Source of the DNA: a virus
Virus record (IMG/VR): IMGVR_UViG_3300029264_000275
Coordinates: 1 to 36,831 of that record
DNA length: 36,831 nucleotides
Direction: 5' to 3' (one strand)
The translations under genes were made by a program, and so were the position numbers. Below the pieces are notes generated by a model. It saw nothing but the letters and a program-made list of their open reading frames with translations, did not search any database and was not told the DNA's origin. This document shows positions 1,811 to 36,831 of this stretch, piece by piece. Positions within the stretch are counted from its first letter, which is position 1, and each line of letters begins with the position of its first letter.

Positions 1811-2182
1811 ATGCTAGGACTTATAAAAAGTTTAATAGGCGTCGGCGGTTCATTCCTCCAAGGCAAGATGGACAATAAACAAGCGGAAATAAAAGGCCGT
1901 AATAAAGCGATCCAAACGAAGCTGAAACAGGCTGGGACGTGGGACGAAATACACGCAAAGAACAGCGGCGAAAGCTGGAAGGACGAATATTTCACGCTTT
2001 TGTTTAGCATTCCCTTGGTGCTGGCCTTTATACCGTCCATGGTGCCGTATGTGGAGCAAGGATTTAAAGCGTTGGACCTTATGCCCGATTGGTACAAGCA
2101 AGCCCTGGCGGTCCTGGTTGCTGCCTCAGTTGGTTATCAAAAGTTAACATCTCTATTTGCTAAAAAAGTGGGTGGAAAATAA
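1811..2182 (+). CDS. Holin, 3TM (gene-transfer-agent) type
   Basis: This 123-residue protein has an N-terminal amphipathic/hydrophobic stretch (1-18), a charged middle, and two strong hydrophobic segments at about 62-82 (TLLFSIPLVLAFIP) and 97-113 (ALAVLVAASVGYQKL). The WKDEYFTLLFSIPLVLAFIP region resembles the 3TM holin family first defined in gene transfer agents. A holin would make inner-membrane holes to release the M15 endolysin encoded immediately upstream. It ends the lysis cassette. A short AT-rich gap then leads into the attP region. Function is inferred from topology, family resemblance and position. Confidence 0.7.
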   Translation: MLGLIKSLIGVGGSFLQGKMDNKQAEIKGRNKAIQTKLKQAGTWDEIHAKNSGESWKDEYFTLLFSIPLVLAFIPSMVPYVEQGFKALDLMPDWYKQALAVLVAASVGYQKLTSLFAKKVGGK

Positions 2183-2198
2183 TTAAATTAATTAGCTA

Positions 2199-2227
2199 TT
2201 GACTAGGGCGGGGGGTATCTTTAGAAT
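2199..2227 (+). promoter_or_regulatory. Strong sigma70-type promoter with GC-rich discriminator
   Basis: TTGACT and TAGAAT are separated by exactly 17 bases, each matching consensus at 5 of 6 positions. The next bases (GCGCCC) form a GC-rich discriminator like those of tRNA and rRNA promoters. It points rightward, through the attP core, and no phage coding gene lies downstream in that direction (int is on the other strand). Confidence 0.6.
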
Positions 2228-2258
2228 GCGCCCAGCAGTAGCGAGCAAGACAAAGACG

Positions 2259-2268
2259 GGTTGCAAAA
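2259..2268 (+). repeat. Candidate P-arm integrase site (GGTTGCAAAA)
   Basis: This is one copy of GGTTGCAAAA, the same decamer found three times in tandem on the other side of the attP core. The int product has a lambda-type N-terminal arm-binding domain, so paired arm-type sites are expected here. The binding role is inferred. Confidence 0.45.
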
Positions 2269-2321
2269 CTCGCTTCTAAGTCGTTGTTTTTATTACTCGC
2301 TGTTTATTGCTATTGCACCCA

Positions 2322-2349
2322 TTGATTGTATGGTAAAGTTGTTTATAAT
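2322..2349 (+). promoter_or_regulatory. Second rightward promoter, directly before the tRNA half
   Basis: TTGATT and a perfect TATAAT are 16 bases apart. An inverted repeat, ATTGATT (2321-2327) and AATCAAT (2347-2353), brackets the promoter and could bind a regulator or recombination factor. The expected start is near 2356, so the transcript would cross the tRNA-derived core at 2379-2423. Confidence 0.5.
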
Positions 2350-2378
2350 CAATGACTTATGCCTTAAAGCGGTTGTGC

Positions 2379-2423
2379 TTTCTAAGCCGTGGGTCGGGGG
2401 TTCGAGTCCTCCAGGGCGTGCCA
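2379..2423 (+). other. attP core: 3' half of tRNA-Arg(UCU), argU-like
   Basis: The segment runs from the anticodon loop (anticodon TCT at 2381-2383) through the variable region, a T arm (GGGGG-TTCGAGT-CCTCC), the 3' acceptor strand AGGGCGT, discriminator G and encoded CCA (2421-2423). It closely follows the 3' half of enterobacterial argU. Upstream bases do not pair into an anticodon stem, and there is no D arm or 5' acceptor strand, so it is not a complete tRNA. Beside int, this is an attP identity block: integration would rebuild the host tRNA. A direct repeat TTATGCCTTAAA flanks it at 2357-2368 and 2461-2472. Confidence 0.85.
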
Positions 2424-2440
2424 AAAAGCCCATAAATATC

Positions 2441-2462
2441 AAGAGCTTACGGCTCTTTTTTT
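2441..2462 (+). terminator. Rho-independent terminator after the tRNA half
   Basis: AAGAGC and GCTCTT form a 6-bp stem around a short loop, followed by a run of T. It lies 17 bases after the CCA, so after integration the phage would supply the terminator for the rebuilt tRNA gene. Confidence 0.7.
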
Positions 2463-2476
2463 ATGCCTTAAATTTG

Positions 2477-2508
2477 GGTTGCAAAAAGGTTGCAAAAAGG
2501 TTGCAAAA
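2477..2508 (+). repeat. Three tandem candidate integrase arm sites, 11-bp period
   Basis: GGTTGCAAAA occurs at 2477, 2488 and 2499, exactly 11 bases apart, placing the copies on one DNA face. A fourth copy lies at 2259 across the core. Arrangement and the lambda-type integrase suggest P'-arm Int sites; Xis or another accessory factor could bind instead. Confidence 0.55.
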
Positions 2509-2562: not shown

Positions 2563-3726
2563 TTATGCCTTGAATTTAGCCAGGCTAAACCCGTCTAAAT
2601 CTACTTCCATCCACTTAATGTCTTTGTGCCTGGCGCTATAATTATCGGTCTGTTTAGCCGTCGAATGGCCGGCCAGATGTTGAGGCAAACAACCCTGTTT
2701 TTCATGCTCATGTATTGCCAACGCGCGCCCCTGGTGAAAGCCTGGACGCTTGCCCATTGGCAAGTCGTTATAGAAGCCCGTCACGTCGTCGCGTAACCGC
2801 TTAAACTCCTTGGTTAAATAGCCTTTATCAATGTAGCTAAAGTGTTGTCCAGACGCCTTTTTTTGAGCAGTTACCTTTTCCGGCTTGCGGTGGATTAAGT
2901 AGGGAGAAATAATATTAACTCGCCCATGGCTAATTGGCCGGTCTAAGACATCGGCCAGTTCTGGCGTTATTTTAATGGCAAGATAACTGGTGTCATATTT
3001 GTGGGTTTTTTGCTGTACCACATATAATACGCCGTCTTTTATATTGTCTTTTTCCATGTTGCAAATGTCACCCCGGCGCTGAGTGGTGAGCATACAAATA
3101 TCCATTGCTTTTTGCATCCAGGGTTCAGCCGCGTTATAGATTGCGCTCCAGCCGTCCTTTGTGTGGCGCTCCACTTCTGGTTCTTTGCCAATTTTAAGGC
3201 AGGGCGACGCTGGGTTGGTGTCTAATTCCCCTTTGGTCCGGCCATAATCAATAGTAACCAGGAGCACTTTTAAAGTCTTGTCTCGCTCTCTAGCGTGCCC
3301 GGCGTTTTCTTCCGGGTCGTAAATACCATCTAAAAATTCAGATATGGCTAGGGTGGTTAATTGGCGACAGCCCCAGCCGTCAAAGTAGGCTTTAATCTTT
3401 TTATGAGCGCCGCGAATTTCAGCAATAGTGGATTTTGCCAATAGCTTTTTGCCGGTCCCGTTTGATTTATACGCCAAGTAGGCGTCGCATAATGCCGCCA
3501 GGCTGGTGGACGGGTGCAATACTGAATCAATTATCGAGGTGGACCCCACCAGCTTATCGTTGAGCGTTTTGGCCGCTGCAATCGCGCTTTGTTTATCCGA
3601 CCCCATGCCGTGAAATTTCTTGGTTATGGGGTGCTTATAGCGGTAGGACAAACTCCCTTTGCCGTTACTGGTTTGGTAAAGGTTAACGGGCAGCCGTTGG
3701 GTGGCTTTAGATTCGCGGTATCGCAT
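2563..3726 (-). CDS. int: Lambda-type tyrosine integrase
   Basis: This site-specific recombinase joins attP to a tRNA-Arg attB and, with Xis, excises the prophage. The 387-residue protein aligns with lambda Int throughout. The N-terminal arm-binding domain (about 1-60, RLPVNLYQTSNGKGSLSYRY) is followed by a core-binding domain (about 75-180) and the catalytic domain. All active-site residues are visible: Arg217 in TTQRRGD, Lys240 in QQKTH, His331 and Arg334 in HQGR, His354 in GHS and Tyr363 in DNYS. The gene is the last of the leftward operon and points toward attP, the usual layout. The divergence from lambda sits mainly in the linker. The start ATG lies just downstream of the xis stop. Confidence 0.95.
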   Translation of the reverse strand: MRYRESKATQRLPVNLYQTSNGKGSLSYRYKHPITKKFHGMGSDKQSAIAAAKTLNDKLVGSTSIIDSVLHPSTSLAALCDAYLAYKSNGTGKKLLAKSTIAEIRGAHKKIKAYFDGWGCRQLTTLAISEFLDGIYDPEENAGHARERDKTLKVLLVTIDYGRTKGELDTNPASPCLKIGKEPEVERHTKDGWSAIYNAAEPWMQKAMDICMLTTQRRGDICNMEKDNIKDGVLYVVQQKTHKYDTSYLAIKITPELADVLDRPISHGRVNIISPYLIHRKPEKVTAQKKASGQHFSYIDKGYLTKEFKRLRDDVTGFYNDLPMGKRPGFHQGRALAIHEHEKQGCLPQHLAGHSTAKQTDNYSARHKDIKWMEVDLDGFSLAKFKA

Positions 3727-6058: not shown

Positions 6059-6156
6059 TAAGCGCCCCATATCAGGTGGCCAGACATTGCCAAAATGGCA
6101 ACATTGCCCAGGAGGGCGCAAGTAATGCCCATTAAAATATCGATTACATTACTCAT
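6058..6156 (-). CDS. 32-residue single-pass membrane micro-peptide
   Basis: The peptide begins MSNVIDILMGITCALLGNVA and ends HLIWGA. It is almost entirely one hydrophobic helix and should insert in the inner membrane. Its ATG overlaps the upstream nuclease stop (TAATG) and its TAA overlaps the downstream gene's ATG (TAATG again), so all three genes look translationally coupled. This double coupling is the main support for a gene this short. Function is unknown. Nearby phages often hide micro-peptides of this type in early operons. Confidence 0.65.
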   Translation of the reverse strand: MSNVIDILMGITCALLGNVAILAMSGHLIWGA

Positions 6157-7208
6157 TATTTTTCAATCTCAATAAATGCACCACCAAATGCAGCGCGTAA
6201 ACTATCGGCCCCAGGGTCGCCAAGTAGCGCCGGGGCGGCTTTAATTTCAGCACTGGTATAGTGCCCAGCGCCTTTGGTTTGGCTGTTGTAAAACTCCACA
6301 CCGTCACCTTTGCGATACTTAACCCAGTTACCAGGGGCATCCATATCAACCATTTGGTGGGGCACCAGGTGATGGTTGTATAAATGCTTTTCGCATCCCA
6401 CGCGCTGTTCGTCGGTGCTTATTTCTTTATCATGAAAAAGACAGCGCCAGCCGCCGTGGTCCATATCAACGTGCGCGTGAATACAGGTCCGGCACGTAAC
6501 TTGTGGCAATGCGTCGCGGTGGCAAACGTCCTGGTGGTCGCAAAATTTGCACTTGAAAAACTCAGCCCTGGTGCTTATACCTGGCGGTGGTTCGTCGGTT
6601 GCAATAATGGTCCTGGCCTTTTCGATCAAAGCTAGGGCATCGTCTTTGTTATATTCAAAAAATTCAGTGTAAAGTTGGTCATTGTCTTTGCAAACTGCCA
6701 TATACATGGCGTGTTTTAACGCAAGCCCGTGCATATAAACCTGCATCTGGGCGTAATGTTCTGGTTTTGATTCGCGGACGCCGTTCTTTTTGAGCAGCGC
6801 AAACGATTTATGGTTGTGAGTTTTAAACTCTAATAAATGCGGCTCTTTTGTTCTTTCGGGTATGTTTTTGCCCACACCGTCGCTAGACCCGGCAAAGTGG
6901 CCGCCGTGAAACGAACAGCCATATTGCTTGCCAGTGGTAGCATCTTCGGCCCACACAAAAGCGCCAATACTTAATAAATCCTTTATAAAAAAAGCTTCCT
7001 CGTCGTGGCCGCGCTTAAATAAACGCAGCACACGGCCAGGAAAGTTGGGCACGGTGGCCCAACGGAAACCATACCAAAGCGCCCGTTCACACTCGCGGCC
7101 GATCATACTAGCGCCTAAATGTGCGCGACTTGATTCGACGTGACTTGTCTCATATTTGCGATAAATCGCTTCGACAGTGCTGTTATGCGCTGTTGGTATG
7201 GTTGGCAT
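6156..7208 (-). CDS. Cas4-like PD-(D/E)XK exonuclease with Fe-S cluster
   Basis: This is predicted to resect DNA ends for phage recombination. From the start MPTIPTAHNS the protein is 350 residues. Motifs are Asp110 in GSSDGVG, Glu127-Phe-Lys129 in LLEFKTH, and a QMQVYMH motif near 154. Cys40 in SMIGRECERALWY plus Cys220, Cys223 and Cys229 form the split four-Cys pattern that holds a 4Fe-4S cluster in Cas4, AddB and Dna2-type nucleases. A second Cys set (239, 242, 256, 272) suggests an added zinc-binding unit. I prefer the start at 7208 because upstream codons overlap the preceding gene and GGGGTTAATGT precedes this ATG. No CRISPR genes are nearby, so a recombination role with the adjacent Sak4-like gene is preferred. 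Confidence 0.85.
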   Translation of the reverse strand: MPTIPTAHNSTVEAIYRKYETSHVESSRAHLGASMIGRECERALWYGFRWATVPNFPGRVLRLFKRGHDEEAFFIKDLLSIGAFVWAEDATTGKQYGCSFHGGHFAGSSDGVGKNIPERTKEPHLLEFKTHNHKSFALLKKNGVRESKPEHYAQMQVYMHGLALKHAMYMAVCKDNDQLYTEFFEYNKDDALALIEKARTIIATDEPPPGISTRAEFFKCKFCDHQDVCHRDALPQVTCRTCIHAHVDMDHGGWRCLFHDKEISTDEQRVGCEKHLYNHHLVPHQMVDMDAPGNWVKYRKGDGVEFYNSQTKGAGHYTSAEIKAAPALLGDPGADSLRAAFGGAFIEIEK

Positions 7209-7212
7209 TACA

Positions 7213-7692
7213 TTAACCCCAAGGTGGCGCGGCGGTGGTCGCGTGGTTTGGTGGAGTAGGGCGGCCAATCATCGGTGCAGTTGGTGGCTGGTTTTGTATC
7301 CGTTTGGTGTGCGTAACTTCGTTTTTAGCTGAATATTCACCAGCGGGTATGGCCTTTACACCCATTAAAAATGGTATTCCCTGGAGTGTTAGCGCGTTGA
7401 AATTTCCCGTTGGTGTTGGTAAGCCTAAATTAGTCGTCAACATGAACAGGTTTTCGGAAGATATTTTTACAGCTTCTGCGCTCTTATTATTTAGATGAAA
7501 ATTCCACCACACTTTACGTTTGGCGAATTCACCATCCATGACAGTACATTCTAAGACCAACATGGTGACGCCAGCCGAAGTCGGCCTATCCTCCACATTG
7601 GTTACCATGGCGTTATATTCGCCCTTTGGCATTGGCTGAAAATCGCCCTTTCCTGATAAATCAATATTTGTTGCATCGAAATTAATTAACAT
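7213..7692 (-). CDS. DUF669-like recombination-module protein (possible ssDNA-binding)
   Basis: The 159-residue protein opens MLINFDATNIDLSGKGDFQP and contains the beta-rich core GEYNAMVTNVEDRPT...LVLECTVMDG...KRKVWWNFHLNN. This pattern is typical of DUF669-family phage proteins, often encoded between a Sak4/AAA ATPase and a nuclease, exactly as here. Single-strand binding has been proposed for such proteins but is not evident from this sequence. The C-terminal 30 residues are Pro- and Thr-rich and end PPWG, a tail reminiscent in position, but not in acidity, of SSB tails. The role is inferred from family resemblance and neighbours. Confidence 0.65.
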   Translation of the reverse strand: MLINFDATNIDLSGKGDFQPMPKGEYNAMVTNVEDRPTSAGVTMLVLECTVMDGEFAKRKVWWNFHLNNKSAEAVKISSENLFMLTTNLGLPTPTGNFNALTLQGIPFLMGVKAIPAGEYSAKNEVTHTKRIQNQPPTAPMIGRPTPPNHATTAAPPWG

Positions 7693-36096: not shown

Positions 36097-36831
36097 ATGC
36101 CGTTTAATCTACCTACTCCAATTTCACTACATGCCGATAGTGCTGACCAAAATGTCGGCACTATTGGCTCAAACCTTACGCTACGAACGAAAAGCGCGGG
36201 TAATTTACCCATCACCACTAATGCCTCTCGTGTGCAGTACAACGGAAATGCGGCAAACACTGCCGAAGGTGTTTTCTTTGGCACAACCGGCCAGACATCT
36301 TTAGGTAATGTAGACGTATATTTATTCCCAACCCTGATGATTTGGTCGCTCCAGTTCAACGCACCGAACAGGCTGCAGACTGCAAACCTGTCCAGCGGAG
36401 GGGTAAGGTTCTGGCTGGGTAGTGGCTCAGACCCTAAAAATAATTATAAAGAGTTTTTCATGGGGGGCAATGATACGCCATTTGGGGCTAGTCAGTCTGG
36501 CCCCGTAACAATTTGCATCGATTTAGCAGATACTTCAAATAATAATACTATAGGCGATTTTGATGCCACGGATATATCTGCCTATGGTGTGGCGACAGTG
36601 CATGAAGGCATCGTAGGAAACCAGTTTGGCGAGTGCTTTTTTCAACGCTCCTTTTTGATTGGAACAAATAAAACTAGCACTAAATTGCCCTACTTCTCAG
36701 GGACAACCAGCTTTGACGATGCAGTATCAGCGGTACAAGGGACAGACTATACCAACAAGATTGGCAGTTGGGTGACAAAATCAGGCTCCAGCTTCTTTAT
36801 ACCCGTACCTTTTAGTTTTGGGAATGGAACC
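36097..36831 (+). CDS. Tail fibre-like protein, N-terminal part (cut by right edge)
   Basis: The ATG at 36097 is preceded by AAAGGGG at 8 to 9 bases. The frame is open for 245 codons to the last base. It opens MPFNLPTPISLHADSADQNV and has NLPITTNASRVQYNGNAANT, IWSLQFNAPNRLQT and a C-terminal WVTKSGSSFFIPVPFSFGNG. The composition is beta-rich with Asn and Gly, as in virion fibres. If the genome is circular, this could be the start of the gene whose C-terminal part opens the window; the frames agree if one base is missing at the junction. Confidence 0.65.
   Translation, partial: MPFNLPTPISLHADSADQNVGTIGSNLTLRTKSAGNLPITTNASRVQYNGNAANTAEGVFFGTTGQTSLGNVDVYLFPTLMIWSLQFNAPNRLQTANLSSGGVRFWLGSGSDPKNNYKEFFMGGNDTPFGASQSGPVTICIDLADTSNNNTIGDFDATDISAYGVATVHEGIVGNQFGECFFQRSFLIGTNKTSTKLPYFSGTTSFDDAVSAVQGTDYTNKIGSWVTKSGSSFFIPVPFSFGNGT

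Follow-up and report, generated by a model that had tools for sequence, protein, structure and literature searches.

A conserved stable-RNA-type promoter beside a phage attachment site may stand in for the lost promoter of an interrupted host tRNA operon

The left arm of the attachment site of the marine phage described here carries a conserved promoter-like sequence (promoter 1) that points outward through half of a tRNA-Arg(UCU) gene. It is best explained as a genuine sigma-70 promoter of the stable-RNA type, and probably it re-drives the host tRNA genes (tRNA-His, perhaps tRNA-Leu) that integration would leave beyond the prophage; we hold this reading as a whole to be likely. The sequence itself, its conservation, the anatomy of attP, the restriction of the promoter to one att module and the operon order in gammaproteobacteria are the grounds for it, and from these we infer transcription from the promoter, the operon order in the host and the need for such a promoter in the lysogen.

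Results

The stretch of DNA analyzed, which we call the window, is the whole 36,831-bp virus record IMGVR_UViG_3300029264_000275 of IMG/VR. This record is probably not an exact circle and may be incomplete, because the open reading frame at its right end (36097-36831) is out of frame with that at its left end (1-1139) when the two ends are joined. A sequence-only reading of the window had proposed two promoters aimed rightward at the tRNA half, and both sequences are present on the + strand exactly as it wrote them: TTGACT-17-TAGAAT at 2199-2227 (site 1) and TTGATT-16-TATAAT at 2322-2349 (site 2), with a GCGCCC discriminator at 2228-2233, 3' of site 1. It had also stated that no phage gene follows on this strand, and we agree: the genes after the core are on the - strand, and the next likely + strand gene beyond the core lies near 10 kb. 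The sole listed + strand open reading frame over the core (2261-2641) contains the tRNA half and runs antisense to the integrase gene, and was taken as spurious rather than as a coding transcript.

The mere presence of promoter-like sites is weak evidence, because such sites also arise by chance. In dinucleotide shuffles of the left arm, one + strand site scoring at least 10/12 appeared in 3.5% and two in 0.08%, and a promoter scan of 5 kb returned 14 sites compared with 9.3 expected in shuffles. It is conservation that splits the two sites, and judged in this way only site 1 appears to stand up as a promoter.

Promoter 1 (2199..2233 on the + strand, the discriminator included) was compared between the window and 12 IMG/VR contigs, which have related integrases (73-98% identity) and are all the related contigs long enough to show it. 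Throughout this set TTGACT is invariant, the spacer is exactly 17 nt and the -10 element is TA(G/C)AAT. Only 1/12 hexamer columns vary, against 19/29 columns in the spacer and the upstream 12 nt (Fisher p = 0.0009, a guide only, since the sequences are related). The discriminators of the group are all GC-rich, with 6-7 G or C in 8 nt. Upstream there is an A/T-rich tract (2176..2194, + strand) that overlaps the stop of the open reading frame 1811-2182; the relatives are similarly A/T-rich here, and the tract may serve as an UP-like element. The layout of a TTGAC -35, a spacer of ~17 nt, a TANNAT -10 and a GC-rich discriminator is that of stable-RNA-type sigma-70 promoters. Transcription is predicted to start at about 2234-2235, and the promoter points outward through the attachment site, as the core lies at 2378-2423 on the same strand.

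At site 2, by contrast, the hexamers decay among the relatives, the -35 being TTGATT, GCGATT, TTTATT or ATGATT and the -10 being TATAAT, TACAAT, TTCAAT or TTTAAT. The letters that remain invariant there are AATCAANNNNTTA, which make up an IHF consensus whose position, -34 from TCTAAGCCGT, is fixed. Site 2 was rejected as a promoter on this account, and the proposal that it reads host genes falls with it. The segment 2322..2349 on the + strand, whose presumed -10 overlaps the IHF site H2, is best taken as belonging to the attP machinery.

The attachment site shows a lambda-like order, P1-H1-H2-core-H'-P'1-3. In the left arm, the putative arm-type integrase site P1 (GGGTTGCAAAAC, 2258..2269, + strand), which repeats the three right-arm copies, is followed by two predicted IHF sites, H1 (2277..2289, - strand; one mismatch in the window, perfect in L005, L011, L012 and L023) and H2 (AATCAATGACTTA, 2347..2359, + strand; at -34 from TCTAAGCCGT in all relatives covering it). 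The core (approximately 2378..2423, + strand) is half of a tRNA-Arg(UCU) gene, the 3' part that extends from the anticodon loop to CCA. To its right are H' (TATCAAGAGCTTA, 2437..2449, + strand) and, just beyond the core, an intrinsic terminator (2441..2462, + strand), the stem of which is mostly kept in the relatives, where one pair is changed on both sides. Then come P'1-P'3, three tandem arm-type sites 11 bp apart (2477..2508, + strand). The predicted arm-type repeat GGTTGCAAAA is thus found once to the left and three times to the right of the core; in the attP of the relatives P1 is GGTTGCAAAAC, and IHF consensus sites lie at -34 (H2) and +56 (H') from TCTAAGCCGT.

The gene adjoining attP (2563..3726, - strand) encodes a tyrosine integrase with a lambda-type arm-binding domain at its N-terminus. 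Pfam places PF09003 at residues 1-60 with E=1.8e-12, over the cut-off, and PF00589 with E=2.5e-5, just under it. Such an integrase next to attP, together with arm repeats on both sides and the sites H1, H2 and H' at conserved positions, indicates that this is probably an attachment site of the lambda type. In one subgroup of relatives (L005, L011, L012, L023), P1 and H1 are shifted together 10 bp outward with respect to the core, and this shift arises from a 10-bp insertion between H1 and H2. As 10 bp is one helical turn, such a shift would fit, as expected, parts of one folded complex.

Two other features of the right arm were seen. H' overlaps the stem of the terminator (2437-2462), so that IHF binding and termination may influence each other. 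The - strand of 2430-2508, downstream of the integrase gene and on its strand, has a sub-threshold Rfam likeness to the Salmonella sRNA STnc50 (34 bits against a gathering score of 55, E=0.0008).

The core agrees with the attP of the argU type that is annotated in Salmonella phage epsilon34 and was seen in HK639 too; it also matches tRNA-Arg(TCT) genes, with 41/47 as its best match to known tRNA-Arg(UCU) genes. ARAGORN found no complete tRNA gene in the window, whose record is possibly incomplete, and the window is thus taken to be the free-phage form. After integration the left arm and the core would join host DNA beyond the tRNA gene, and in this geometry the sequence-only reading was right.

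An exact scan for the core and a scan for the integrase in genome contigs gave no match that would point to the host of the phage, and the core matches found in IMG/VR were free attP forms that lack the 5' half of the tRNA, with no attR junction among them. The genes that we place downstream are taken from other gammaproteobacteria. There, tRNA-Arg(UCU) is directly followed by tRNA-His in 16 distinct upstream contexts (Aeromonas, Legionella and contigs), which usually carry Leu(UAG) too; 15/16 are host-type, and the last one (L150) resembles a tRNA array of a phage. The order in both Aeromonas caviae and Legionella adelaidensis is Pro(UGG)-Arg(UCU)-His(GUG), which Leu(UAG) follows in Legionella, and host stretches in IMG/VR contigs, several of them from isolate genomes, have Arg-His-Leu or Pro-Arg-His. 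Insertion into Arg(UCU) would part a gene from its promoter in these 15 host-type contexts, but not where the Arg(UCU) gene stands alone, as it does in E. coli, Klebsiella and Proteus.

All 16 Arg-His contexts are placed behind a TTGAC-17/18-TANNAT-like promoter (that of L150 was judged by eye, and that of L129 is the same as that of L126), and in every context except L233 and L150 at least 5 of 8 nt in the discriminator are G or C. The promoters of L126 (TTGACG-17-TAACAT-GCGCCCC) and L115 (TTGACG-17-TAATAT-GCGCACC) both resemble the phage sequence TTGACT-17-TAGAAT-GCGCCC. The GCGCCC discriminator had earlier been likened to stable-RNA promoters, and the host Arg-His operon promoters, which have the same layout, bear out this likeness. 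A wide scan for a promoter with tRNA-Arg returned mostly intact tRNA genes, many of them in phage tRNA arrays, and many host operons too.

The promoter was then sought in phages with a different att module or a similar core. Five related contigs (L043-L047) have the same holin-like gene (75-87% amino acid identity) with other integrase modules. The core of L044-L046 is a 22-nt sequence identical to the 3' end of tRNA-Leu(UAG) from the Arg-His-Leu operon L236, of which this tRNA-Leu is the last gene, while the core of L043 and L047 is a tmRNA 3' end (below the Rfam gathering score, aligned to the end of the model). Between holin and core, L043-L047 have no + strand site scoring at least 10/12, and six enteric argU-type phages have no site scoring at least 10/12 within 250 bp of the left arm. 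Because it is absent from both sets, promoter 1 appears to track this group's tRNA-Arg module rather than the phage family or the argU core itself. All the promoter-bearing relatives come from one integrase lineage, so that independent events are few, and the association of the promoter with the tRNA-Arg site may go back to a single evolutionary event. The holin neighbourhood is joined to three integrase/att modules in all, those of tRNA-Arg, tRNA-Leu and tmRNA, and the comparison of L043-L047 with the window looks like a clear case of module swapping at the boundary between the lysis gene and attP.

Discussion

We propose the following course of events. The phage would recombine within tRNA-Arg(UCU), in the 3' half of this inner gene of a (Pro)-Arg-His-(Leu) host operon. 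At one end of the integrated prophage tRNA-Arg would be restored under the host promoter, and beyond the other end tRNA-His (and Leu) would be left promoterless and otherwise silent. Promoter 1 would then transcribe the P arm and the tRNA fragment into tRNA-His/Leu, substituting for the lost promoter; host RNases free tRNAs from polycistronic tRNA transcripts. The terminator at 2441-2462 would stop the repaired tRNA-Arg transcript ahead of the integrase gene, and in the free phage it would end the transcripts from promoter 1. That the promoters of the left arm read host genes cut off from their own promoter, such as later members of a tRNA operon, had been suggested for both sites. For promoter 1 this is supported by the geometry, the stable-RNA look, the conservation, the confinement to the tRNA-Arg module and the presence of tRNA-His (often Leu) after this tRNA-Arg in most of the gammaproteobacterial operons compared; for the second site, an IHF/attP element, it is not.

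Integration into tRNA genes is usually called harmless, since a long core rebuilds the tRNA. The rebuilt tRNA leaves open the fate of the remaining operon when an inner gene is used, and a transplanted promoter is suggested here as the answer. We lean, if only slightly, towards a more general statement: phages using an inner tRNA gene would carry a host-type stable-RNA promoter in their integrase/attP module for the downstream tRNAs, relatives using the last gene would do without, and the tRNA-His supply of the lysogen would depend on a phage promoter. This gives a testable rule, namely that phages at inner sites have the promoter and those at terminal or lone sites lack it. In Aeromonas caviae there is a second tRNA-His gene, 99% identical, and the rescue would thus not be vital in every host; the benefit in some hosts may be one of fitness rather than survival. 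In our search of open-access papers, which covers only part of the literature, we found no report of a phage promoter supplied to the rest of a tRNA operon. Haemophilus phage HP1 integrates in a tRNA cluster and is a possible precedent.

Other explanations for promoter 1 were considered. Its product could be a phage small RNA of ~228 nt (2235-2462), with its 3' end at the terminator beyond the core, which would work in the free phage or early in infection, say as a regulator or an antisense RNA near the integrase 3' end. Promoter and terminator do bracket a short non-coding unit, its 5' hairpin is kept in part, and the transcript of the window (but of the window alone) folds slightly better than shuffles (z = -2.6). 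However, the covariation term is -0.08 and there is no Rfam match at gathering score; double changes that keep a pair are scattered, the best-supported ones being mainly in the T-arm and the terminator, and the conserved blocks fall on the Int and IHF sites. Moreover, in the lysogen the terminator is no longer 3' of promoter 1. The small RNA, which the sequence-only reading had offered as an alternative, has therefore gained little support, and we regard it as unlikely.

Nor do we think it likely, to about the same degree, that promoter 1 controls recombination, with transcription across attP or RNA polymerase sitting on its border hindering Int/IHF assembly and so tying integration to the growth state. 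The distance from the -35 to the TTGCAA of P1 is nearly fixed at 61-62 bp in both subgroups while P1 shifts by 10 bp with respect to the core, which favours such a role, but a fixed distance is equally expected if the whole block was moved through one 10-bp insertion, and the sister phages with other integrases manage without promoter 1. Finally, promoter 1 could be a relic, either a host tRNA-operon promoter caught by imprecise excision or a product of chance, with no present use. It does resemble host tRNA-operon promoters, and TTGAC lies ~177 bp from CTTCTAAG in L126, where Arg is the first tRNA, compared with ~180-190 bp in the phages. If it were a relic, however, the hexamers should hardly persist as they do while spacer and flank diverge among relatives whose integrases are down to 73% identical, and we give this explanation a rather small chance. 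A promoter for the integrase gene itself, of the Pcirc type, was ruled out, because this gene is on the - strand and the terminator at 2441-2462 comes before it.

Replacement of a lost operon promoter, the reading that we prefer, has partial parallels in known systems. In dusA-associated prophages and islands, putative -10/-35 regions are found upstream of dusA before and after integration (PMC4482086). There, as is proposed here, the element puts its own sequence before a host gene severed from its start; those elements, however, insert at the 5' end of a protein gene, whereas here the target would be an inner tRNA gene, the proposed beneficiaries would be the next tRNA genes and the phage promoter is of the stable-RNA kind. 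In tRNA-dependent lysogeny of mycobacteriophages, attP leaves the tRNA unrepaired and a complete tRNA gene comes with the phage (PMC10865867). Both would carry a remedy for the damage that integration does to the host tRNA supply, but in the present phage the long core can rebuild tRNA-Arg, a promoter would be supplied and no phage tRNA was found. DLP12, epsilon34 and HK639 share with our phage the core from the tRNA-Arg(UCU) 3' half, an integrase gene that lies beyond the core and is directed towards it, and arm and IHF sites in a lambda-like order. Those enteric argU phages that were examined differ in having no left-arm promoter, which fits the lone argU of E. coli.

In ICEclc, ICEKp1 and ICEEc1, 3'-end (Pcirc-type) promoters drive int when the element is circular (PMC13023037, PMC2892462). 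Like promoter 1, these promoters are borne by the element near one end and point across an attachment site at a tRNA gene; in these elements int is downstream on the same strand, while here it is on the opposite strand with a terminator between. An unrelated isolate-derived virus record (L151:2548-2770) also has half a tRNA-Arg with a TTGACA promoter upstream; on that strand its integrase gene follows downstream, an arrangement consistent with an int promoter that works only when the DNA is circular. Elsewhere in the window, the - strand of 6156-7268 encodes a 370-aa protein with a weak likeness to Cas4-type nucleases (24 bits, cut-off 65).
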